Assembly: GCA_025062275.1 (NCBI GenBank)
Contig: JANXAP010000032.1
Location: 1-53,954, forward strand
Origin: Dehalococcoidia bacterium
GTDB taxonomy: Bacteria; Chloroflexota; Dehalococcoidia; SM23-28-2; HRBIN24
Direction: 5' to 3'
Length of the DNA: 53,954 nucleotides
The position numbers and the translations under genes are program-made. Below, in pieces: positions 9,013 through 34,850 of the stretch. A model generated the notes under the pieces. That model was not told where the DNA came from, ran no database searches, and saw only the letters and a program-made list of their open reading frames with translations. Within the stretch, counting starts at the first letter, position 1. Each line of letters begins with the position of its first letter.

Positions 9013-9327
9013 ATGGGCCTGGCCCCCGACGCTGCGTTGCCCCTGGCCGTGGACACCCTGGCGGGAGTCTGCGGCCTCTTCAACGCCCTCTACTTCCTGG
9101 CCTACCTGCTGGCCAGGGGGCGGGGGCCTACCTACCGGGTGGCAGCGGGCGCCCTGGCCCTCGTCTCAGCGGCGGTGGCGGCCGAGAGCGCCGTCCTGCT
9201 GGCCTGGCGGGGCGGTGCCGGGGAGGCCCTGGACGGCGCCTGGGGCACGTCGCGGCTGCTGTCGGCCCTGGGAGCTGTCGCTGTTACCCTGCTGGTGCTG
9301 AGGCGGATGATCGCCCTGAGCGACTGA
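9013..9327 (+). CDS. Small three-helix membrane protein, holin-like
   Basis: 104 residues, start ATG with GGAGG 8 bases upstream. Three hydrophobic segments are visible: about 12-37 (LAVDTLAGVCGLFNALYFLA), 45-66 (AAGALALVSAAVAAESAVLL) and 84-98 (LSALGAVAVTLLVLRR), with a short charged tail. No enzyme motif. It opens a run of four tiny genes with tight or overlapping junctions (9013-10036) ending in an XhlA-like coiled-coil/TM protein, which is how phage lysis modules look. A holin role is inference from size, topology and context; an uncharacterised membrane protein is the safe call. Confidence 0.55.
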   Translation: MGLAPDAALPLAVDTLAGVCGLFNALYFLAYLLARGRGPTYRVAAGALALVSAAVAAESAVLLAWRGGAGEALDGAWGTSRLLSALGAVAVTLLVLRRMIALSD

Positions 9328-9341
9328 GGAGGTGTCGGGAG

Positions 9342-9515
9342 ATGGCCGCAACGCTGGCCGTGGCGCTGGAGAGGGGACGCTGGGACGTGGCCGCCCTCTG
9401 CCTGGCCCTGGGGGTCGTGGAGGCGGCCTCCCGCCTGCCCCCAGACTCCCTGCAGGCCCTGCTGGCCCTGCTCCAGGAGGACACGACCCGGAGGAGGGGG
9501 CGGCTTGGCCGCTAG
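9342..9515 (+). CDS. 57-residue hypothetical protein
   Basis: ATG with GAGGAGGTGTCGGGAG upstream, 14 bases after the previous stop. The sequence is short and mostly helical (ATLAVALERGRWDVAALCLA, LGVVEAASRLPPDSLQALLA), ending in an Arg-rich tail TRRRGRLGR. No recognisable family. It overlaps the next gene by 11 bases in another frame, which supports translation coupling and its reality. Seen in the same small-gene island as the holin-like proteins; function unknown. Confidence 0.5.
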   Translation: MAATLAVALERGRWDVAALCLALGVVEAASRLPPDSLQALLALLQEDTTRRRGRLGR

Positions 9516-9849
9516 CCGCCGCGTGCGCCGCCGCGGCGGCCGCCTGCGCAGCTTCTACGAGGAAGCCCTCAGCGAGGCCGAACGGCTGGAGCTGGAGCAG
9601 GCGCGGGAGGTGGAGGGGCTGGACGAGGAGATCGCGGTCCTGAGGGTGCGGCTGAAGCGCGCCCTCCGGGAGCACCCTCAGGACCTGGCCCTCATCGCCA
9701 AGGGCGTAGACATGCTGGTGAAGGCGGTGGCGGCCCGCTACCGACTGTCGCCCAAGGCCCGCCGCGACCTGGCCGACAACCTGGCGGGCCTCATCGAGGG
9801 CATCGACAACCTGCTGGGGAGGGAGGAAGGTGGCCAGGGGCAAGCTTGA
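9505..9849 (+). CDS. 114-residue helical, highly charged protein of unknown function
   Basis: TTG start at 9505 behind GGAGGAGGGGGC. The protein begins with a basic stretch (RRVRRRGGRLRSFYEEAL) and continues as amphipathic helix (EAERLELEQAREVEGLDEEI, LRVRLKRALREHPQDLALI). The end, YRLSPKARRDLADNLAGLIE, resembles the DNA-binding or oligomerising helices of small phage packaging proteins, but I cannot assign it. It overlaps both neighbours (11 and 20 bases). In phage gene order a charged helical protein like this could be a terminase small subunit or regulator; that is only a possibility. Confidence 0.55.
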   Translation: MAASRRVRRRGGRLRSFYEEALSEAERLELEQAREVEGLDEEIAVLRVRLKRALREHPQDLALIAKGVDMLVKAVAARYRLSPKARRDLADNLAGLIEGIDNLLGREEGGQGQA

Positions 9850-10036
9850 AGGGGCCATCAAGCGGCTGGCCCGCCGCTGGCCAAGGGGGCCCACGCGCCC
9901 CTCTCGGGAGGCCATCGAAGTGCGACTGGCAGCGGTGGAGCGGGACCTGGCCGAGCTGAAGGCGCGGGTCAACGGCCTCATATTCGTCGTCCTGGGGGCC
10001 GTGGTCACGCAGGTGGTCCTGAAGCTCGTGCAGTAG
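9830..10036 (+). CDS. XhlA-like coiled-coil protein with C-terminal membrane helix
   Basis: 68 residues from GTG, with GGGAGGGAGGAAG upstream, overlapping the previous gene by 20 bases. A basic N-terminus is followed by an amphipathic heptad segment (EVRLAAVERDLAELKARVNG) and one membrane helix at the end (LIFVVLGAVVTQVVLKLV). This topology, coiled coil then terminal TM in under 80 residues, matches haemolysin XhlA-type proteins that accompany holins in phage lysis modules. Sequence similarity is to the pattern rather than to particular residues, so the family call is tentative. Confidence 0.55.
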   Translation: MARGKLEGAIKRLARRWPRGPTRPSREAIEVRLAAVERDLAELKARVNGLIFVVLGAVVTQVVLKLVQ

Positions 10037-25049: not shown

Positions 25050-25106
25050 GGCCACGCCCCGTCCCGTGCACGCCTCGCAGGCACGGCCCCCGCTGCCGCG
25101 AGGCCC

Positions 25107-25136
25107 TTGACGCTTTTGGAACATATGTTCTAGCAT
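25107..25136 (+). promoter_or_regulatory. terL promoter with LexA/SOS box in the spacer
   Basis: TTGACG (25107-25112) and TAGCAT (25131-25136), spacer 18. The spacer contains GAACATATGTTC (25119-25130), a perfect 12-base palindrome that fits the Gram-positive/Chloroflexota-type LexA consensus GAAC-RNRY-GTTC. Repressor binding there would occlude RNA polymerase directly. A second copy of the same type precedes the capsid segment at 30161. Confidence 0.7.
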
Positions 25137-25161
25137 GGGGCCACCGAAAGGGGGTCAGGCG

Positions 25162-26547
25162 GTGGCTAGGGTGTTCCCCCTCCGCAACGTGCTGCGGCCC
25201 TACCAGCTGGAGGTGGCCAGGGCCGTCCTGGAGAGCGTGCGTCGGCGCCTGGGCCTCACCTTCACGGTGATGATGAGCCGCCAGGCGGGCAAGAACGAGC
25301 TGTCGGCCCAGATGGAGCTCTATTTGCTGGCCCGCCACCTGCACCGGCCCGAGGAGCTGGTCAAGTGCGCCCCCACCTTCGACCCTCAGGCCCGCATCAG
25401 CCTGCGCCGGCTGTGGCAGCGGCTGGAGGAGGCGGGACTGGGGGAGCTGGCCTCCCTGGAGGAGGGGCGAGCGGTGCGCCTGGGCCGGGCCCGCCAGCTC
25501 TTCCTCTCGGCCGAGCCGGGGGCGCACGTGGTGGGCCACACCGCCACCCTGCTGCTGGAGGTGGACGAGGCCCAGGAGGTGGAGCGGGAGAAGTTCCAGC
25601 GCGATTTCCTGCCCATGGTGGCCGCCACCGGCGCCACCGTCGTCCTCTACGGCACTCCCTGGGACGGCTCCACCCTGCTGGAGGAGATGGCCGAGCACCA
25701 TCGCGAGCTGGAGCGGCGGGACGGGGTGCGCCGCCACTTCCAGTGGGACTGGCAGGAGGTGGCCCGCCACAATCCGGCTTACGCCCGCTTCGTGGAGGCC
25801 GAGCGGCTGCGCCTGGGCGAGGAGCACCCCCTCTTCCGCACCCAGTACGCCCTGCGGCCCATCGGCGGCGGAGGGAGGCTCTTCTCCCCCTCCCAGCTGG
25901 CCCAGCTGCGGGGTGAGCACCCGCGGCAGGCAGCCCCGCGGCCGGGCGAGTGCTACGTGGCCGGCCTGGACCTGGGCGGCCAGGACTGGGATGGCGGCAG
26001 CCGCAGCCACGACGCCACCGTCCTGACCATCGCCCGTGTCCTCTTCCCTCCGCCCGAGGCTGTCGTGCAGGAGCCTCTGCTGGAAGTGGTGGAGCAGCGG
26101 GCCTTCGTGGGCACCCCCCACGACGAGCTGTATGCCGTCCTGGCCGACCTGCTGGGCCGCGTCTGGCGGGTGCGGCGGGTGGCGGTGGACGCCACCGGCC
26201 TGGGGGAGACGCTGGCGCGGCTCCTCGCCCGCTCCCTGGGAGAGGGTGCGGTGCTCCCCCTGCGCTTCAGCGCCGAGGCCAAGTCTCGCCTGGGCTATGG
26301 CCTGCTGGCGGCCGTCAACGGCGGCCGCCTGCGCCTATACGCCCAAGACGGCTCCGCCGAGTGGCGGGAGGCCTGGCGGGAGCTGGAGGCGGCGCGGGCC
26401 GTCTACCGCCCCGGTCGGGCCATGTCCTTCTACGTGCCCGAGGGCCAGGGGCACGACGACTATCTGGTGAGTCTGGCCCTGACGGTGGCAGCGGCAGCGG
26501 GCCTGTCCGGCCCCCGGGTGGCCCGCGGCCGCCCGACGAGGGGGTGA
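25162..26547 (+). CDS. Phage terminase large subunit (packaging ATPase-nuclease)
   Basis: 461 residues from GTG 25162 with AAAGGGGGTCAGGCG upstream; an in-frame ATG at 25135 overlaps the -10 box and is less likely. TerL pumps DNA into proheads and cuts it. ATPase motifs: Walker A SRQAGKNE (about 39-46), Walker B LLLEVDEAQE (about 130-139), coupling motif VVLYGTPWDGSTL. Nuclease domain acidic residues: AGLDLGGQDWDG, RRVAVDATGLGETLARLL and GQGHDDYLVSLALTV, all three catalytic Asp present. It looks intact and functional. No terS is recognisable upstream; a small HTH gene follows with a TGATG overlap. GC content equals that of host genes. Confidence 0.93.
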   Translation: MARVFPLRNVLRPYQLEVARAVLESVRRRLGLTFTVMMSRQAGKNELSAQMELYLLARHLHRPEELVKCAPTFDPQARISLRRLWQRLEEAGLGELASLEEGRAVRLGRARQLFLSAEPGAHVVGHTATLLLEVDEAQEVEREKFQRDFLPMVAATGATVVLYGTPWDGSTLLEEMAEHHRELERRDGVRRHFQWDWQEVARHNPAYARFVEAERLRLGEEHPLFRTQYALRPIGGGGRLFSPSQLAQLRGEHPRQAAPRPGECYVAGLDLGGQDWDGGSRSHDATVLTIARVLFPPPEAVVQEPLLEVVEQRAFVGTPHDELYAVLADLLGRVWRVRRVAVDATGLGETLARLLARSLGEGAVLPLRFSAEAKSRLGYGLLAAVNGGRLRLYAQDGSAEWREAWRELEAARAVYRPGRAMSFYVPEGQGHDDYLVSLALTVAAAAGLSGPRVARGRPTRG

Positions 26548-26888
26548 TGAAGGTGCAGAGCCCGGCCCTGGATGAGCAGCGCGCGGGGGCCGTCCGCACC
26601 CTGCAGCGGGTGCGAGAGGACGCCCTGCCCGAGCATACCGAGTACCGCGATACGGGCTGCGACATCCATCCTTCCTGTCTCTCCTGTCCCCTGCCCCGCT
26701 GTCGCTACGACGAGCCCGGAGGCATAAGGGCGCTGCTGGGCGCCCGTCGCGACCGCCAGATCGTGGCCCTGCGTCGCCAGGGGCTGACCATCGAAGAGCT
26801 GTCGCGGCGCTTCGGCGTCTCGCGGCGGACCGTCTTCCGCGCCCTGGAGAAGGCCCGCGCCCAGGACCGCCCCGAGGAGGAGCCATGA
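26547..26888 (+). CDS. Small Cys-motif/HTH protein between terminase and portal
   Basis: 113 residues, start ATG sharing one base with the terL stop (TGATG); its own stop overlaps the portal start (ATGA). The N-terminal half has a Cys cluster GCDIHPSCLSCPLPRC (C-x5-C-x2-C-x4-C), likely zinc or iron-sulfur. The C-terminal half is a helix-turn-helix RDRQIVALRRQGLTIEELSR followed by RFGVSRRTVFRALEKA, close in form to Hin/sigma-region-4 HTH. In position and with a DNA-binding domain it may be the terminase small subunit, or a regulator of the locus. I do not recognise an existing family. Confidence 0.75.
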   Translation: MKVQSPALDEQRAGAVRTLQRVREDALPEHTEYRDTGCDIHPSCLSCPLPRCRYDEPGGIRALLGARRDRQIVALRRQGLTIEELSRRFGVSRRTVFRALEKARAQDRPEEEP

Positions 26889-28258
26889 GCACTACCCTCG
26901 CCCAGCCCCTTCCCCAACAGCTGGCCCGCCTGGACCTGGCGCGGCTCCAGGCCTACCGCGACAACCTGGATTTCTACCGCGGCATCCAGTGGAGCGGCCC
27001 GCCCCGGCGGCGGGAGCGTCGCCTCACCTTCAACTACGCCAAGGCGGTCATCGACAAGACCGCCTCCTACGTGATGAACGGGCTAGAGGTGCACCTGCTG
27101 CCCCGGGAGCCCTCGCCCCAGGCGGAGGCCCTGGCCCGCGAGGCGGAGGAGGCCCTGCGGGAAGTCCACCAGGCCAACGCCCTGGACCAGATAGACCTGG
27201 ACAACGAGATCGACTGCTCGGTGCTGGGGGACGCCTGCTATAAGGTGACCTGGGACCCGCGGGAGCGGAGGGTGCGCGTCTCGGCGCCCGACGTCCAGGG
27301 CCTCTTCGCCTGGTGGGAACCCGACGACATGGCCCGCGTCTGGCGGGTGGCCCTGCGCTACCAGCTGACAGGAGAGGAGCTGGCCCTGGCCCATCCCCAG
27401 CTGATGCCGGGAGGCAACGGCAGCCGCCCGGGCCGCCTGGACGCTGACCAGCGCACGGTGGTGGAGGTCTGGACGGCCCGCCGATTCCAGCTCTGGGTGG
27501 ACTCGGCCCTGGCCGATGAGCGTCCCAACCCCTACGGCTTCATCCCCTTCGTCATCTACCCTAACCTGCGAGAGCCGAAGCAGTTCTGGGGCGTTTCCGA
27601 TATCCCGCCTATCCGCGAGGCCGTCCAGGAACTGAACCGGGCCATGAGCCAGCTCTCCCTCATCTTGGAGCTTTCGGGGAACCCCATCGCCGTGCTGGAG
27701 AACGTCAGCGAAGCGAGGGACATCGCCGTGCAGCCCGGGGCCGTGTGGGAGCTGCCGGAGCGGGCGCGGGCCTACCTGCTGGACCTGCTGCAAGGGGGTG
27801 GCGTGGGGCTGCACGTGGACTACGTGAACCTTCTTTTCCGCGTCCTGCACGACCTGGCCGAGGTGCCCCGGGCCGCCTTCGGCGAGGGTCGCCAGGCCGT
27901 TTCGGGCGTGGCCCTGGAGATGGAGCTGGACCCCCTGGTCAAGAAGGTGCAGCGCAAGCGGCTGCTGCGCACCGCCGCCATCAAGCACCGCACCGAGATG
28001 GTGCTGCGGCTGCTGGAGCAGCACCGCCGCCGCCCCTACTCTTCCCTTCGGGTCGAGGTGAGCTGGGGGCCGGTGCTGCCCCAGGACCGTTCCCGCCTGG
28101 CCCAGGACGAGGCGCGGCTGGTGGCGGCGGGCATCCACAGCCGGCGCACGGCAGCCCTGGCCCTGGGGACTCCCGACGCCCTGGGCGAGTTCGGGCGCTG
28201 GCTGGAGGAGCAGAGGGCCCTGGCGACGGGCGGCCCCCCAGGGGAGGCCGAGTGCTAG
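26885..28258 (+). CDS. Phage portal protein (SPP1 gp6-like)
   Basis: 457 residues. Portals form the dodecameric DNA channel at one capsid vertex. The N-terminal region RLQAYRDNLDFYRGIQWSGP and RRLTFNYAKAVIDKTASYVM is the typical SPP1-type start (Y..Y..y.G.., N....vvd....y..G). Then DQIDLDNEIDCSVLGDACYK with VTWDPRERRVRVSAPDV, and FWGVSDIPPIREAVQELNRA before the long clip/stem helices LNRAMSQLSLILE. The C-terminal crown helices include VQRKRLLRTAAIKHRTEMVL. Full length. The next phage gene in usual order (protease/scaffold) is displaced 1.9 kb downstream by two cellular genes. Confidence 0.9.
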   Translation: MSTTLAQPLPQQLARLDLARLQAYRDNLDFYRGIQWSGPPRRRERRLTFNYAKAVIDKTASYVMNGLEVHLLPREPSPQAEALAREAEEALREVHQANALDQIDLDNEIDCSVLGDACYKVTWDPRERRVRVSAPDVQGLFAWWEPDDMARVWRVALRYQLTGEELALAHPQLMPGGNGSRPGRLDADQRTVVEVWTARRFQLWVDSALADERPNPYGFIPFVIYPNLREPKQFWGVSDIPPIREAVQELNRAMSQLSLILELSGNPIAVLENVSEARDIAVQPGAVWELPERARAYLLDLLQGGGVGLHVDYVNLLFRVLHDLAEVPRAAFGEGRQAVSGVALEMELDPLVKKVQRKRLLRTAAIKHRTEMVLRLLEQHRRRPYSSLRVEVSWGPVLPQDRSRLAQDEARLVAAGIHSRRTAALALGTPDALGEFGRWLEEQRALATGGPPGEAEC

Positions 28259-28971
28259 GGCAGAGCTGGCCGGCTCCCCTCCCACCAGGGGGGAGTCTCC
28301 TGCCTCAGCACCTGCAGAAAGACGTCCACCACGTCGGGGTCGAACTGGCTGCCGGCGTTGCGCACCAGCTCCCGCGCTGCCTGCTCGGGGGGAATGGCCC
28401 GGCGATAGGGGCGGTCGGTGGTCATGGCATCGAAGGCATCGGTGACGGCCAGCACACGGGCGGCCAGGGGTATCTCGTCCCCCTTCAGGCCGTAGGGATA
28501 GCCGCGGCCGTCGTAGCGCTCGTGGTGATGGAGGACGGCCTCCTTGACCTCTGCCAGCCCGGGCAGGGACGAAAGGACGTCGCCCCCCAGCTCCGGATGG
28601 CGGCGCATGAGCTGCCACTGGCGCTCCGTCAGGGGGCCCGGCTTGAGAAGGACGCTGGGAGGGACCCACAGCTTGCCCAGGTCGTGGAGCACGGCGGCGG
28701 CCCGCACCACCCAGACGAAGCGCGGGGGCAGGGGCAGGGCCTGGGCCACGGCAGTGGCCAGCCAGGCGCAACGGCCGGCATGGACCAGGGTGCCCAGGTC
28801 CCGCAGGCCCAGGTCTATCAGCAGCGACTCCAAAGAGGCGGGGCGGGCCGCGGAGTGGGGGTCCCCCTGCAGGGCCAGGCTCTGGGCAGTCTGCACCACC
28901 CGCAGGGCGCGACGCACCAGCAGGGCCACGTCGGCCGGAGCATGGGTGTGGCCGTGACGGTCCCCGCCCAC
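28255..28971 (-). CDS. HD-GYP domain phosphodiesterase (probable c-di-GMP hydrolase)
   Basis: 238 residues from GTG with GAGGAGGGTAGG upstream. The HD-GYP domain is complete: AAAVLHDLGKLWVP (HD), RHPELGGDVL, the HHHERYDGRGYPYGLKGDEI segment with GYP, ARVLAVTDAFDAMTTDRPYR and the C-terminal GSQFDPDVVDVFLQVL. HD-GYP proteins cleave cyclic di-GMP. The N-terminal 90 residues are helical and without a known sensor. The stop shares CTAG with the portal stop (4 bases), so this gene abuts the phage genes end to end. It is a cellular gene lying inside the phage-like locus. Confidence 0.93.
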   Translation of the reverse strand: MGGDRHGHTHAPADVALLVRRALRVVQTAQSLALQGDPHSAARPASLESLLIDLGLRDLGTLVHAGRCAWLATAVAQALPLPPRFVWVVRAAAVLHDLGKLWVPPSVLLKPGPLTERQWQLMRRHPELGGDVLSSLPGLAEVKEAVLHHHERYDGRGYPYGLKGDEIPLAARVLAVTDAFDAMTTDRPYRRAIPPEQAARELVRNAGSQFDPDVVDVFLQVLRQETPPWWEGSRPALP

Positions 28972-29075
28972 CCTACCCTCCTCGCCTCGCTAGCCGCTGG
29001 TACCGCATGTCCAAATTAGGAGACGTTTCGGACGGAAGGCCGTGACAGGTCTCCGTCTGCCCTACCCGGCCCGCC

Positions 29076-29098
29076 TCGAGTACGCTCGATGCTATAAT
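29076..29098 (+). promoter_or_regulatory. Promoter of the phosphotriesterase gene with inverted repeat
   Basis: Consensus TATAAT (29093-29098), 35 bases before the ATG. The spacer carries TCGAG-TACG-CTCGA (29076-29089), a 5+5 inverted repeat where a repressor could sit. -35 weak. Confidence 0.45.
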
Positions 29099-29133
29099 CG
29101 CCCTAGCTCGCACGTCAACGTCGGGAGGCAGCC

Positions 29134-30102
29134 ATGCCGGTGGAGACAGTTCTCGGCCCCGTGGAGACATCCCAGCTCGGGCAGACCCTGATGCACGAGC
29201 ACATCTTCGTCCGCTCTGAGCCCGCCTACATGAGCTTCCCCCACCTGTGGGACGAGGAGCGCTGGGTGGCGGAAGCGGTGGCCAGGCTCCAGGAGGCGGC
29301 GGCCGAGGGGGTGCGGACCCTGGTGGACCTGACGGTCATGGGCCTCGGTCGGGACGTGCGACTGGTGCAGCGCATCGCCCGGCAGGTCCCCCAGCTGAAC
29401 ATCATCGTGGCCACCGGGATCTACATCTACAGCGACGACGAGATGCCCCGCGCCTTCCGCGCCCTGAACGCCGACCAGCTGGCGGAGCTGTTCGTTCGAG
29501 ACATCCGCCAGGGGATCCAGGGCACCGAGGTCAAGGCGGCCATCATCAAGTGCGTCACCGACGAGCCCGGCGTCACCCCCCAGGTGGAAAAGGTGCTGCG
29601 GGCAGCCGCCCGCGCCCACCTCCAGACGGGGGTCCCCATCTCCACCCACACCCACTCCTGGACACGGCGAGGGCTGGACCAGCAACGCATCTTCAAGGAA
29701 GAGGGGGTCGACCTGTCGCGGGTGGTCATCGGCCACTCGGGCGACACCGACGACTACGAGTACCTCGTCCAGCTCATGGAGAACGGGTCCTACATCGGCA
29801 TGGACCGCTTCGGCATCTACCCGGTGCCGGCGGCCTCCCACTTCCCCACCTTCGAGAAGCGGGTGGAGGTGGTGGCCGAGCTGTGCCGACGCGGCTACGC
29901 CGAGCGCATGGTCCTCTCTCACGACGCCTCGGTTTACATCGACTGGTTCCCCGCCGACCTGCTACGCATGGCCCAGCCCCGCTGGCACTACTGCCACATC
30001 CACCGAGAGGTGTTGCCTGCCCTGCGCGAGCGGGGAGTGACGGAGCGCCAGATAGAGCAGATGCTGGTAGAGAACCCCCGGCGCATCTTCGAAGGCCGCT
30101 GA
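29134..30102 (+). CDS. Phosphotriesterase-family amidohydrolase
   Basis: 322 residues, a TIM-barrel metal hydrolase of the PTE/PLL group. Metal ligands: the HxH in LMHEHIFVR near residue 20, the bridging (carbamylated) Lys in KAAIIKCVTDEPGVT (about 150), His in GVPISTHTHSWTRRGL, His in VVIGHSGDTDDYEYL, and Asp in MVLSHDASVYIDWFP. Family members act as lactonases or organophosphate hydrolases; the natural substrate here is unknown and lactones are the usual guess. It has its own promoter. It is a cellular gene lying between the two halves of the phage-like locus. Confidence 0.92.
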   Translation: MPVETVLGPVETSQLGQTLMHEHIFVRSEPAYMSFPHLWDEERWVAEAVARLQEAAAEGVRTLVDLTVMGLGRDVRLVQRIARQVPQLNIIVATGIYIYSDDEMPRAFRALNADQLAELFVRDIRQGIQGTEVKAAIIKCVTDEPGVTPQVEKVLRAAARAHLQTGVPISTHTHSWTRRGLDQQRIFKEEGVDLSRVVIGHSGDTDDYEYLVQLMENGSYIGMDRFGIYPVPAASHFPTFEKRVEVVAELCRRGYAERMVLSHDASVYIDWFPADLLRMAQPRWHYCHIHREVLPALRERGVTERQIEQMLVENPRRIFEGR

Positions 30103-30160
30103 ACCTCCCCCTCTCCTCGGCCCCGAGCCCGCAGGGTGCCAGCTCCTTCTTCGCTCAGGA

Positions 30161-30172
30161 GAACGCATGTTC
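30161..30172 (+). promoter_or_regulatory. LexA/SOS box before the capsid segment
   Basis: GAACGCATGTTC, perfect fit to GAAC-RNRY-GTTC. The two copies in the window share the longer core GAAC-NN-ATGTTCTA. It lies 45 bases before the scaffold-like ATG; TAACCT just after it (30173-30178) may be the -10 box, the -35 is weak. Confidence 0.7.
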
Positions 30173-30205
30173 TAACCTCGGCCCTGACCGAAGGAGGTGA
30201 TGGTC

Positions 30206-30697
30206 ATGGCCGAGAGCGAGCAGGAGGCGGCCCTGCCCGACGAGCTGGTCGAGGTCCGCCGCGAGCTGGAGGCCCTCCAGGGCCAGGTGGCCGACGCCGA
30301 GGCCCGGGCCGCCCACCACCGCCAGCAGGCTGCCCTGCTCCAGCAACAACTGGAGCAGGCCAGGCAGGAAGTGGCCCGCCTGCAGGGGGAGTTGGCCCAG
30401 GCCAGGGACGAGGCCGAGGCCCTGCGCCAGCGGCTGCGGGAAGCGGCCCTGCGTTACCGGGAGGCGCGCCTCGCCGCCCGCCCCGAGCTGCCCCCGGAGC
30501 TGGTGACGGGGGAGACGCTGGAGGAGATAGAGCAGCAGCTGCAGCAGGCCGAAGGCATCGTGGCCAGGCTGCGGGAGCGAATGGAGGAGCAGGCCCAGGG
30601 AGAAAGCTTCCCGGCCGGAGCGCCGCCCCGGCGGGGGCCTGACGTCTCGTCCCTCACCCCTCTGGAGAAGATACGCCGGGGGCTGCAGGGGCGCTAG
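30206..30697 (+). CDS. Coiled-coil protein, putative capsid scaffold
   Basis: 163 residues from ATG 30206 with AAGGAGG 8 bases upstream (30191-30197), preferred over two in-frame starts just before. Residues about 10-90 are continuous heptads (LVEVRRELEALQGQVADAEA, LLQQQLEQARQEVARLQGEL), then a second helical segment LEEIEQQLQQAEGIVARLRE and a short basic C-terminal tail (LTPLEKIRRGLQGR). A helical rod with a basic C-terminal end directly before a capsid gene is the standard form of a phage scaffold, whose tail contacts the coat protein. No protease motif. The assignment rests on position and structure, not on sequence similarity. Confidence 0.7.
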   Translation: MAESEQEAALPDELVEVRRELEALQGQVADAEARAAHHRQQAALLQQQLEQARQEVARLQGELAQARDEAEALRQRLREAALRYREARLAARPELPPELVTGETLEEIEQQLQQAEGIVARLRERMEEQAQGESFPAGAPPRRGPDVSSLTPLEKIRRGLQGR

Positions 30698-30727: not shown

Positions 30728-31615
30728 ATGGCACTCACGCTGGCCGAGGCGGCCAAGCTCAGCAACGACATGCTGCTGGTGGGGGTCATCGAGACCATCG
30801 TCAAGGACTCGCCGGTGCTGCAGGTGCTCCCGTTCATCGAGATCCAGGGCAACGGCCTCACCTACAACCAGGAGGCCACCGCCCCTCAGGCAGCCTTCTT
30901 CGACGTGGGCGACACCTGGACCGAGTCCACTCCCACCTTCGAGCAGAAGACGGCCCAGCTCAAGATCATGGGTGGCGACGCCGACATCGACAACTTCCTG
31001 CTGGCCACCCGCTCCAACCTGCAGGACCTGGAGGCAGCGGTGGTCCAGCTCAAGGCCAAGGCGGTGCGCCAGCTCTTCGAGGACACCTTTATCAACGGCA
31101 ACAGCAGCACCAATCCCAAGGCCTTCGACGGCATCGACCGCCTGTGCGATTCCTCTCAGACCGTTTCCATGGGGGCCAACGGCGGCACCCTCACCCTGGA
31201 CAAGCTGGACGAGCTCATCGACCTGGTGAAGGGCGGCAAGCCCGACATGCTCCTCATGAGCCGCCGCAGCCGCCGCATCCTCAACCGCCTGGCGCGGCAG
31301 GCAGGCGGCTTTCTGGAGACGGACCGCAACGAGTTCGGGCAGATGGTCCAGTTCTACGACGGCATCCCCATCGGCGTGAGCGACTACATCCCCGACAACC
31401 AGACGGTGGGCACCAGCAACGACTGCTCCACCATCTACGCCCTCCAGTTCGGCGAGGGGGGCGTGGCGGGGCTGACGGCCCCCGGCGGCCTGCAGGTGGA
31501 GCGAGTGGGCAGCCTGGAGAGCAAGGACGCCACTCGCATCCGCATCAAGTGGTATGCGGCGGTGGCCCTGTTCAACAAGGTGAAGCTGGCCAGGCTGGTG
31601 GGCGTGCGGCCTTAG
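30728..31615 (+). CDS. Phage major capsid protein (HK97 fold, probable)
   Basis: 295 residues after a GGGAGGTGAAGGGAA site. The opening ALTLAEAAKLSNDMLLVGVI is followed by VLQVLPFIEIQGNGLTYNQE, DTWTESTPTFEQKTAQLKIM and a strong DNFLLATRSNLQDLEAAVVQ helix; KPDMLLMSRRSRRILNRLAR and FYDGIPIGVSDYIPDNQTVG are elements of the P domain and A domain in HK97-type coats (the IPigvsdyi stretch is widely conserved). The end IKWYAAVALFNKVKLARLVG forms the closing strand. No N-terminal delta domain is fused; that role would fall to the separate coiled-coil scaffold in front. Confidence 0.88.
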   Translation: MALTLAEAAKLSNDMLLVGVIETIVKDSPVLQVLPFIEIQGNGLTYNQEATAPQAAFFDVGDTWTESTPTFEQKTAQLKIMGGDADIDNFLLATRSNLQDLEAAVVQLKAKAVRQLFEDTFINGNSSTNPKAFDGIDRLCDSSQTVSMGANGGTLTLDKLDELIDLVKGGKPDMLLMSRRSRRILNRLARQAGGFLETDRNEFGQMVQFYDGIPIGVSDYIPDNQTVGTSNDCSTIYALQFGEGGVAGLTAPGGLQVERVGSLESKDATRIRIKWYAAVALFNKVKLARLVGVRP

Positions 31616-31633: not shown

Positions 31634-32032
31634 ATGCCCAACGTCAGGCTCGACGCGCAGGGGGTGCCCAAGGGGCCCGTCTACGAGGGGACGGCCCCGG
31701 TGCTGCACCGGGGCCCCCTCTCGGCCCCCGACGCCGCCGACCCCGCCGGCCCCGCCCAGGCCCTGGACTGCAGCGGCTACCGCATGGCCCGCTTCGACCT
31801 GGACACCACCGGCAGCAGCGGCCTGCAGTGGCTGGAGGTGCAGCTCCTGGTGTGGAACCCCACGGCCGGACGCTTCTTCGCCGGCGCCCGCCGTTACTTC
31901 GGGCCGGCCCAGCTCCAGGCCAGCCCCTGCCCCAGTTTGGAGGCGGAGGTGAGGGGGGCTACCGTCTTCCTGAAGGTGACGGGGGTCGGGGCCGCCTCTC
32001 TGTCGCTCCGGGTCTATGCCAGCCTGAGCTGA
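31634..32032 (+). CDS. Small beta-rich protein, possible capsid decoration
   Basis: 132 residues after GAAGAGGTGTGCC. Sequence alternates short beta strands and Gly/Pro turns (YRMARFDLDTTGSSGLQWLE, VQLLVWNPTAGRFFAGARRY, then VFLKVTGVGAASLSLRVYAS), suggesting a compact beta sandwich. No catalytic motif and no known family. In tailed phages the slot between major capsid and connector often codes for a decoration or head-fibre protein. That role is inferred from position only. Confidence 0.65.
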   Translation: MPNVRLDAQGVPKGPVYEGTAPVLHRGPLSAPDAADPAGPAQALDCSGYRMARFDLDTTGSSGLQWLEVQLLVWNPTAGRFFAGARRYFGPAQLQASPCPSLEAEVRGATVFLKVTGVGAASLSLRVYASLS

Positions 32033-32045
32033 GGGGGTGGGGACG

Positions 32046-32669
32046 GTGGACATTGTCCAGTTGCGGGCGCGCCTGCGTCGCGACCTGCGCGACGAGGACC
32101 CCGACGGGCAGCGCTGGAGCGACGCGGAGCTGGACCGCCACCTGCAGCGGGCGGCGCGCGAGCTCTCCCTGGCCGTCCCCCTGGAGGCGGTGGCCATCCT
32201 CACAGCCCCCGGAGCGAGTCGCGACCTGTCGCTGGCCTCCCTCGAGGGGCTGGTAGAGGTGGAGGCGGTGGAGTACCCCGTAGGCCTCTTCCCGCCCAAC
32301 TACGTCCCCTTCTCCCTGTGGGGCGACAGGCTGACGCTGCTGGGCGAGCGGGTGCCGGCAGCCGGAGAAGGGGTGCGGGTCTACTACACCCGCCTGCACA
32401 CCCTGGACGCCACCGTCTCCACTGTGCCCGCCGCCCTGGAGGACCTGCTGCTGACGGGGGCCGCCGCCTACGCTGCCCTGGAGTGGGCAGGGTATGCCGC
32501 CAACCGCATCAACGTGGGCGGCGAGGACGTGTGGCGCCGCTACCTGACCTGGGGCGAAAAGATGCTCTCCCTCTTCCAGCAGGGGCTCGAGCGCCACTCG
32601 CGCCGCAACAGCGTTCGCTCCCGCCGCCTCTACACCCCGGCCCGGCCGGCGAGCGAGCGTCGGGGCTGA
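32046..32669 (+). CDS. Head-tail connector/adaptor protein
   Basis: 207 residues from GTG 32046 with GAGGGGGTGGGGACG upstream; GTG 32037 is an alternative. Begins with helical text IVQLRARLRRDLRDEDPDGQ and WSDAELDRHLQRAARELSLA, which corresponds to the N-terminal helical bundle of gp6/gp15-type connectors (D...L...). Later helices LEDLLLTGAAAYAALEWAGY and EDVWRRYLTWGEKMLSLFQQ, then a basic tail. In SPP1 and HK97 such proteins ring the portal and close the head. The match is to the family pattern and place in the order. Confidence 0.75.
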   Translation: MDIVQLRARLRRDLRDEDPDGQRWSDAELDRHLQRAARELSLAVPLEAVAILTAPGASRDLSLASLEGLVEVEAVEYPVGLFPPNYVPFSLWGDRLTLLGERVPAAGEGVRVYYTRLHTLDATVSTVPAALEDLLLTGAAAYAALEWAGYAANRINVGGEDVWRRYLTWGEKMLSLFQQGLERHSRRNSVRSRRLYTPARPASERRG

Positions 32670-32679
32670 GGGGGCGGCC

Positions 32680-34623
32680 GTGCGCTTCCTGCCGCCAGCC
32701 CTGGCAGACGCCCAGCGCTCCCTCTCTGCCGTCCCGTACCTGGAGGTGACGCTGTCGCAACGGAGGGCTGGCGTGGCGAGGGCCGCCTTTCAGCGGCTGT
32801 ACAGCGGGGGCGAGCCGGCCGGCCCCCATGCAGCCGCCCTGGCCGGCGACGGCTCCCTGCTGCGGGCGCGCATAGCCGGCGGCCAGCTCTACTACCAACG
32901 GGTGCCTTCGCCGGGACCTGGCGCCCCCTTCGCGTCGTGGACGCCCCTGACAAGCGCCCAGCAATCGGTAGCCCTGGCGGCCCTGGGGTCGCAGGTCCTC
33001 CTGGCCTATGTGGCCGCCGACGGCTCGGTGGCGGTGCGCGAAAGCCAGGACTACGGGGCCAGCTTCGGAGCCGCCGTCGCGGTGCTGCCGTCGGCGGCCG
33101 GCGCCCGGCACCTGGCCCTGGCCCTCAAAGGGGGCGAGGCCCTTCTGGCCTACGCCAGTCCCTCCCAGGTGGCCGTCGTCAGGCGCACGGGCGGCTCCTG
33201 GGGCAGCCTCTCGGCCTGGCCCCACAGCCTCGGCAGCATCAGCGGCCTGGCCTGCCACTACGGCGGCGACTATGACCTGCTGGTGACGGGGGAGGAGGCA
33301 TCGGGACGGGCCGGTGTCTGGACCGTCGTCTTCGGCGACGGCTACCGACAGGCCTCCGGCACCTGGTCGCCCCTGCGAGAGGTGCAGCGGGCCGATGCCG
33401 GCTCCGGGGTGAGCTTCGCAGCCCCTTGCCTCTCGGCCCCCGACCTCTACCGCCTCGCCTTCGTCGAGTCCTACAGTGGCAGCCAGCCCTACGCCCGCCT
33501 GCAGCTATCGCACCTGGCCCCCGACATCGACTTCGCCGACAACTGGTGGAGAGAGCCGCTTCCCAGCGACATCACCGGCAGTTACGGGGTGGCCATGGCC
33601 TCCGCCCCGGGCGTCCTCTGGCTTTCGTCCACCGACGGCGTCTGGCGGGCCGACCTGTCGGCCGCCGTCCTGGACGTGAGCGGCAGCGTCCTGGCGCTTG
33701 AGATGGAGGAGGTGCCCTGGGGAGGGCGGCTCCGTCTCCAACTGGTCGACGACGCCGCCCTGTCGGGGCCCAACGGCCCCCTACAGCCCGGGGCCGAGGT
33801 GGCCGTCTCCCTGGGCTACCTGACGGCCGATGGCCCCCTCGCCTCGCCGGCTCCCCGCCACTGGCTGACGGCGGTGGAGGTGCGCAGCGAGGGCGGCCGC
33901 CGCACGGCGACGCTGGAGGCCGTCAGCGCCTGGGGCCTGCTGGGGGCCTGGCGGGCACGGCGCCAGTTCGCCTGGGCGGCGGGGGAGCGCAACGTCTTCG
34001 CCATCCTCTCGTTCCTGTGGGCGCGGGCGGGGATACCGTTCACCACCGTCAGCTACTCCCAGGCCGCCGTGGACCTGCGTCCCGCCTTTACTGTCCAGCC
34101 GGGCCAGTCGGGTCTGGAGGCGGTGCGGCGGCTGCTGGCCATGGTGCCCGACGTGGTGCTTCTCTCCCAGAACTACGCCCTCCTCAAGCACCCTCTGGAC
34201 ACGGAGACCCCCGTCTACACCTACGGCAACGACCATCCCGTCCTGGCGGCGGTGGCACGGCGTTCCCCGCCCGTCGCCAACCGGGTCCAGGTCTACGGGC
34301 AGGGGGCCTTCGCCGAGGCCTTCCTGTGGGAGGACGTAGACCGCTCGGGCGAACGCCTGCTCCAGGTGCACGACCTGAACGTGGCCAGCGCCGCCCAGGC
34401 AGCCGACCGCGCTTTGTGGGAGGCCCGCCGCCTGCGGCTCTCGCTGGTCAGCGAGGAGGTGACGGTGCCCACCAACTGCGCCCAGGAGCTGTACGACGTG
34501 GTCACGGTGACGGAGCCGTCCCTGGGCCTGACCGCGGCCAGGCGACGGGTGCTGTCCATCCGCACCAGCTACGACGCCCGCCGCGGCCTCTACCGCCAGC
34601 GCCTGGGCCTGGGGGCGCCCTAG
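32680..34623 (+). CDS. Beta-propeller / tail-hub fusion protein
   Basis: 647 residues from GTG with GAGGGGGCGGCC upstream. Residues about 50-330 form repeated beta blades with Asp-box-like turns (SQDYGASFGAAVAVL, GDYDLLVTGEEASGRAGVWT, LWLSSTDGVWRADLS), a propeller suited to receptor or glycan binding. Residues about 340-647 look like a tail-hub/gpD-gp27 domain: LRLQLVDDAALSGPNGPLQP, FTVQPGQSGLEAVRRLLAMV, ANRVQVYGQGAFAEAFLWED, ADRALWEARRLRLSLVSEEV, CAQELYDVVTVTEPSLGLTA and the final YDARRGLYRQRLGLG. It would attach at the tip and recognise the target cell. The fusion is unusual to my knowledge. Start and domain limits are approximate. Confidence 0.75.
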   Translation: MRFLPPALADAQRSLSAVPYLEVTLSQRRAGVARAAFQRLYSGGEPAGPHAAALAGDGSLLRARIAGGQLYYQRVPSPGPGAPFASWTPLTSAQQSVALAALGSQVLLAYVAADGSVAVRESQDYGASFGAAVAVLPSAAGARHLALALKGGEALLAYASPSQVAVVRRTGGSWGSLSAWPHSLGSISGLACHYGGDYDLLVTGEEASGRAGVWTVVFGDGYRQASGTWSPLREVQRADAGSGVSFAAPCLSAPDLYRLAFVESYSGSQPYARLQLSHLAPDIDFADNWWREPLPSDITGSYGVAMASAPGVLWLSSTDGVWRADLSAAVLDVSGSVLALEMEEVPWGGRLRLQLVDDAALSGPNGPLQPGAEVAVSLGYLTADGPLASPAPRHWLTAVEVRSEGGRRTATLEAVSAWGLLGAWRARRQFAWAAGERNVFAILSFLWARAGIPFTTVSYSQAAVDLRPAFTVQPGQSGLEAVRRLLAMVPDVVLLSQNYALLKHPLDTETPVYTYGNDHPVLAAVARRSPPVANRVQVYGQGAFAEAFLWEDVDRSGERLLQVHDLNVASAAQAADRALWEARRLRLSLVSEEVTVPTNCAQELYDVVTVTEPSLGLTAARRRVLSIRTSYDARRGLYRQRLGLGAP

Positions 34624-34637
34624 ATACGGGGGTCGAG

Positions 34638-34850
34638 ATGGAGCTGGTCAAGGGGGTGGTCAGGGGTTTCGACAGCGCCAGCTACCGGGCCACGGTCCAG
34701 CTGGCCGGCTCCCTGGCCGTCTGGCTGGAGGGGGTGCCGGTGGCCAGGAACATCCCTGCCGCCCAGGTGACGGTGGGACGGGGCTGCGTGGTGCTCTTCT
34801 TCGACGAGGCCAACCCGCGGGACGCTGTAGTGCTGGCCGTCTACGAATGA
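34638..34850 (+). CDS. OB-fold spike-like baseplate protein (gpV/gp5 N-terminal type)
   Basis: 70 residues from ATG after GGGGGTCGAG. VRGFDSASYRATVQLAGSLA, VWLEGVPVARNIPAAQVTVG and RGCVVLFFDEANPRDAVVLA make the five strands of a small OB fold like that in phage baseplate hubs (VxxFDxxxxRatV...vPvA..i...v..G..v.V.f). No trimeric beta-helix spike follows, so it caps the hub only. It sits 14 bases after the tail-hub gene, as in typical baseplate order. Confidence 0.65.
   Translation: MELVKGVVRGFDSASYRATVQLAGSLAVWLEGVPVARNIPAAQVTVGRGCVVLFFDEANPRDAVVLAVYE

Follow-up and report, generated by a model that had tools for sequence, protein, structure and literature searches.

Two perfect LexA-type boxes in the window (the whole 53,954-nucleotide stretch of Dehalococcoidia DNA that was analysed) each precede a segment of phage-derived genes. 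Our preferred reading, to which we assign a probability of about 0.76, is that both are operators for the host LexA on a domesticated, vertically inherited GTA-like element, and that DNA damage would release the two units together. The motif, its genomic LexA context, its conservation, the promoter layout and the vertical inheritance could be established from the comparisons described below, while LexA binding, induction by damage, the participation of an activator, the making of particles and their transfer of host DNA are inferred. All operators, promoter elements and genes given window coordinates here lie on the + strand.

The first box, GAACATATGTTC (25119..25130), sits in the terL core promoter (25107..25136), within the 18-base spacer that separates TTGACG from TAGCAT, a layout shared by relatives. 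The second, GAACGCATGTTC (30161..30172), precedes the scaffold-capsid segment, in which the scaffold-like gene starts at 30197; it is followed by a weak -10 (TAACCT) and a good -35 is absent. Both boxes overlap the core promoter, as a LexA operator should, both contain GAAC-NN-ATGTTCTA, and TA lies directly 3′ of each. In these respects the sequence bears out the first-pass annotation, which had described two exact boxes with a common core, one in the terL promoter spacer and one before the scaffold-capsid run, and had found no further intergenic copy; GAAC-N4-GTTC occurs only twice in the entire window. By count alone, two sites are weak and only suggestive evidence, and the case is thus carried by position, genome context and comparative evidence. 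Shuffling the window gave a mean of 0.21 GAAC-N4-GTTC sites, and the fact that two sites were reached in 3 of 100 shuffles leaves some room for chance occurrence of both boxes. We consider this a negligible possibility, already ruled out by the comparative data, as place, layout and motif are repeated in dozens of genomes.

GAAC-N4-GTTC is the Gram-positive-type SOS box of Bacillus. The Dehalococcoidia boxes share its palindrome, its spacing and the autoregulation of lexA; they differ in that the host belongs to the Chloroflexota and in that, at the phage-gene promoters, the box falls between -35 and -10 and is joined by an upstream element. In this genome, GAACAGGCGTTC is found just before the lexA start, which rules out the possibility that the motif is foreign to the genome's own LexA, and the same motif occurs in lexA promoters of relatives at the level of both order and class. 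It had been proposed that the motif be derived from the recA and lexA promoters. This was feasible for lexA, but the recA promoter had to be rejected as a source because it has no box, and the recA box was likewise absent from nine other genomes of the order that were read. Overall, recA was boxed in 8 of 31 genomes, including some other families of the class. A recA box is common in SOS regulons, although it does not define a LexA operator. The recA loci sampled from the order (L007, L316, L320-L323, L327, L330, L332 and L333) are all unboxed, while lexA and the phage units are boxed.

Genome-wide (1.8 Mb on 41 contigs) there are 13 GAAC-N4-GTTC sites, versus 5 for a reversed control pattern. 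Apart from lexA, the boxed SOS genes include a Y-family polymerase gene and radA on contig C40 (GAACGTGAGTTC). Two further boxes, 25 bases apart and lying in a strong promoter (TTGACA), were observed at positions 11818-11854 of contig C17 (G000; loci L002 and L003); the gene behind them encodes a small zinc-ribbon protein of unknown role and is likely to be another SOS gene. The names of these boxed genes, radA and the zinc-ribbon gene, were read from translated sequence.

Candidate sites were scored with a LexA matrix trained on 25 lexA-promoter boxes from other genomes, this genome being excluded. The terL and scaffold sites scored 20.5 and 19.2, and the next best site in the 54 kb scored 8.7. 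On 80 named contigs from relatives, 94 of 125 segment-upstream windows had a site scoring 12 or more, and the density of sites was 0.92 per kb within such windows versus 0.02 per kb elsewhere. Among the 256 possible X-N4-X′ palindromes, GAAC-N4-GTTC ranked first upstream of TerL, being found in 23 of 78 cases versus 0.4 expected. These counts were taken over sequences related by descent and do not represent independent events; TerL identity in the set extends down to about 50%. Within the order, an exact box was present within 1.5 kb at all 15 terL loci for which upstream sequence was available. In the class, a box followed by TA was found at 52 of 72 TerL loci, the other 20 having no box by the pattern used, and 14 loci were boxed at two or more segments. 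In two genomes, G002 and G013, the terL and capsid segments are on separate contigs and both are boxed; in G015 boxes precede terL, scaffold and capsid, and at locus L150 they precede TerS-terL, HTH-portal and scaffold-capsid. Where the gene set is broken up, its separate pieces usually carry a LexA-type box of their own in the core promoter. In genomes of family f4 (loci L102, L104-L107, L273 and L283), about three LexA-type boxes were observed clustered in a stretch of roughly 80 bases that lies some 300 bases ahead of terL.

An alternative is that the boxes are bound by a different LexA- or CI-like repressor that is dedicated to the phage genes. A precedent exists in the Caulobacter GTA, where RogA, a dedicated LexA-like repressor without key cleavage residues, acts through gafYZ (PMC9632790). 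That system resembles the present one in its control by a LexA-like repressor, there with a benefit for survival of DNA damage, and differs from it in that RogA is dedicated and works via gafYZ. A dedicated repressor would also accommodate the observation that many phage units in other orders of the class carry GAAC-N4-GTGC, whereas GTTC is found in those lexA promoters that were examined within the class, a difference which means that affinity for LexA may not be the same at the two kinds of site. In this genome, however, a single LexA was detected above the NCBIfam cut-off, with no second LexA-family repressor, both window boxes fit the lexA-promoter matrix and score like lexA sites, and the terL box has exactly the sequence of the one that precedes the Y-family polymerase gene. 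We therefore regard a dedicated repressor as quite improbable and retain the host LexA as the predicted ligand, in support of the earlier suggestion that the two segments could be induced together through host LexA, without any phage repressor.

When the phage promoters are aligned on the box they read GTGaCA, 19 or 20 bases, GAACatatGTtC, TAttaT; the TTGAC at -35 is variable. An upstream element, [TC]G[AC]CA, was present in 71 of 97 phage promoters versus 0 of 30 lexA promoters, and in 67 of 73 cases across the class a gap of 19 or 20 bases separated it from the box. The element was first noticed in the same promoters that were later used for its count. In the window, an exact copy (TGCCA, 30137..30141) is located 19 bases before the scaffold box, where the -35 is poor, and TGCCG (25094..25098), one base off the consensus, is located 20 bases before the terL box, where the -35 is good. 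The fixed spacing, together with loss of the -35 in some promoters, suggests an activator site at about -46. A dedicated activator may act in addition to LexA, and derepression alone would perhaps be insufficient. The HTH protein encoded after terL is the inferred candidate, on the strength of a weak likeness to phage late activators.

The gene set behind the boxes comprises genes for head, connector and hub. In the first segment, the TerL ORF as called spans 25135..26547, and the real start is probably a GTG near 25162, an inference drawn because the -10 and the ATG at 25135 share bases and homologues align from residue 13-20. It is followed by the small HTH protein (26547..26888; phrog_836, E 2e-6) and by a portal protein of SPP1 type (26885..28258). 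The second segment encodes a scaffold-like coiled-coil protein (30197..30697; phrog_1793), a major capsid protein of HK97/SU10 type (30728..31615), gp8, a conserved small structural gene (31634..32032), a head-tail adaptor of SU10 type (32037..32669), gp10 (32680..34623) and gpB, a small protein after the hub that is also conserved (34638..34850). In a structure model of gp10 (mean pLDDT 83), the matches are to Mu gp44/T4 gp27-type baseplate hubs in its C-terminal half and, more weakly, to propeller lectins in its strand-rich N-terminal half. A tape measure was not found in the genome (PF10145 is absent), and for this reason any particle that is produced is likely to be very short-tailed. Between the two segments lie an HD-GYP gene and a phosphotriesterase-family gene; rpsF borders the pair of segments at one end, a MerR-type regulator at the other. 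In HRbin24 and G002 the head segment is still followed by the MerR-type gene, the only one of these neighbours to be retained; as conserved neighbours of terL, rpsF, HD-GYP and phosphotriesterase were considered and rejected, being absent beside terL in the relatives read.

The distribution of these genes follows the host. Homologues of terL were present in 40 of 61 relatives and of capsid in 32 of 61, mostly as a single copy per genome. Among species-representative genomes, relatives were encoded on 285 contigs; the 80 that were kept were labelled Chloroflexi/Chloroflexota or Dehalococcoidia and subgroups, except for the hot-spring bins HRbin23 and HRbin24, the latter from the same genus as the host and with a TerL that is 89% identical. 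Pairwise distances for TerL correlated with those for RecA (r 0.86, 14 genomes), LexA (0.93, 11 genomes) and capsid (0.82, 17 genomes). The structural and packaging genes are inherited with the host lineage, as expected of a GTA. Judged by these comparisons, they do not constitute a recent prophage. A prophage in the usual sense, sporadic and with a contiguous genome and an integrase, was rejected, given the occurrence of terL in 40 of 61 relatives and the dispersal of the segments.

An active temperate phage that uses the host LexA as its repressor would nevertheless be conceivable, as host LexA is known to control some phages and related TerL proteins occur in IMG/VR contigs. It is made highly improbable by the absence of any integrase or replication gene between the segments read, the location of the segments on different contigs in relatives, distances that track the host, and the remoteness of the closest isolated phages (TerL 32%, capsid 41%). 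Phage integration or replication genes, or a repressor of its own, were not seen alongside the set in the stretches read, which do not cover the whole genome. Many contigs with a TerL of this kind are listed as viral in IMG/VR (loci L178-L257), and some of these may be pieces of Dehalococcoidia chromosome that carry the element.

It is also possible to accept the LexA sites as genuine and to view the genes as a prophage remnant, or as encoding a particle without any role in DNA transfer, for example a killing or tailless one. The missing tape measure, the interruption of the gene set by host genes and the splitting of gp10 into two ORF pieces in HRbin24 would be compatible with this. However, the frames are open, and terL and capsid are under purifying selection (dN/dS values lie mostly at 0.1-0.3, those of gp10 and gpB being higher); the ATPase and nuclease active-site residues of TerL are invariant over 17 genomes, and the promoters are conserved class-wide. 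We consider a remnant or non-transferring particle unlikely. A GTA-like product remains our preferred inference because the genes are vertically inherited and dispersed, the packaging enzyme is conserved and no phage replication genes were seen in the stretches read, although neither particles nor DNA transfer have been demonstrated.

Under the GTA-like reading, each box would lie in the core promoter of a separate transcription unit, and the two units together would provide phage functions for head, packaging and hub. By binding between -35 and -10, LexA would silence both. DNA damage would lead to self-cleavage of LexA and hence to joint release of the two units, even though 5 kb separates them and host genes surround them. 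The constant placing of the [TC]G[AC]CA element relative to the box, at about -46, suggests that a dedicated activator is needed as well, perhaps the HTH protein after terL. That LexA represses at the core promoter and that damage frees both units together are predictions from the established SOS pathway; neither binding nor induction was demonstrated here. A broader proposal, which we hold only tentatively and at somewhat less than even odds, is that this is an ancient Dehalococcoidia GTA, its separate blocks driven by two-key promoters that combine direct LexA repression with a GTGACA-type element activated by the phage-derived HTH protein. The phage units of the order would have kept LexA control where recA did not, so that the SOS response would count particle production among its core outputs.

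GTAs linked to DNA damage or to LexA have been described elsewhere. VSH-1 of Brachyspira hyodysenteriae is a GTA with a divided genome that is induced by DNA-damaging agents (PMC11409702, PMC5147047). It resembles the Dehalococcoidia element in the divided genome and the link to DNA damage; it belongs to another phylum and no sequence link has been established, whereas the Dehalococcoidia element has mapped LexA-type operators at separate units. For RcGTA of Rhodobacter capsulatus and the GTA of Dinoroseobacter shibae, LexA is reported to act via CckA/CtrA (PMC6363796, PMC6473078). Vertical inheritance, several loci and a link to LexA are common to these and the present element, but LexA acts indirectly there, whereas the Dehalococcoidia boxes are in the promoters of the structural genes themselves. 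No report of a GTA in Chloroflexota was found in the literature searched, which is weak evidence of absence since subscription papers were mostly outside the search. A class-wide element with direct LexA operators, if confirmed, would couple the exchange of DNA to its damage in a poorly cultured group, to which organohalide respirers and many bacteria of the deep ocean and the subsurface belong, and would point to a readily available protocol for induction.

The first-pass annotation had assigned one box to each phage segment. This holds for the terL and scaffold-capsid segments but not for a third phage-derived segment that it had missed, at 9013-10036, behind a HIT-family gene and 15 kb from terL, where there is no box within one mismatch. 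The third segment begins with a small membrane protein (9013..9327) and includes a helical ORF. A TerS-like protein follows (9505..9849), and a model of the relatives' TerS-like protein, which in those genomes is encoded upstream of terL, matches at 9526-9822; its identity as TerS is weak, resting on position and on profile matches that are themselves weak (phrog_1889, matched by 3 of 12 members). The last gene (9830..10036) encodes a coiled coil and a membrane helix, has no Pfam family, and is a lysis gene candidate, holin-like by shape only. The third segment is also unboxed in two relatives from the host's family, HRbin24 and G002. The homologous block in G009 is boxed (GCACGGTTGTTC) and has the full promoter layout. 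In the window, GGTGACG and CTATCCT occur at a similar spacing with a decayed box between them, possibly a relic of such a promoter.
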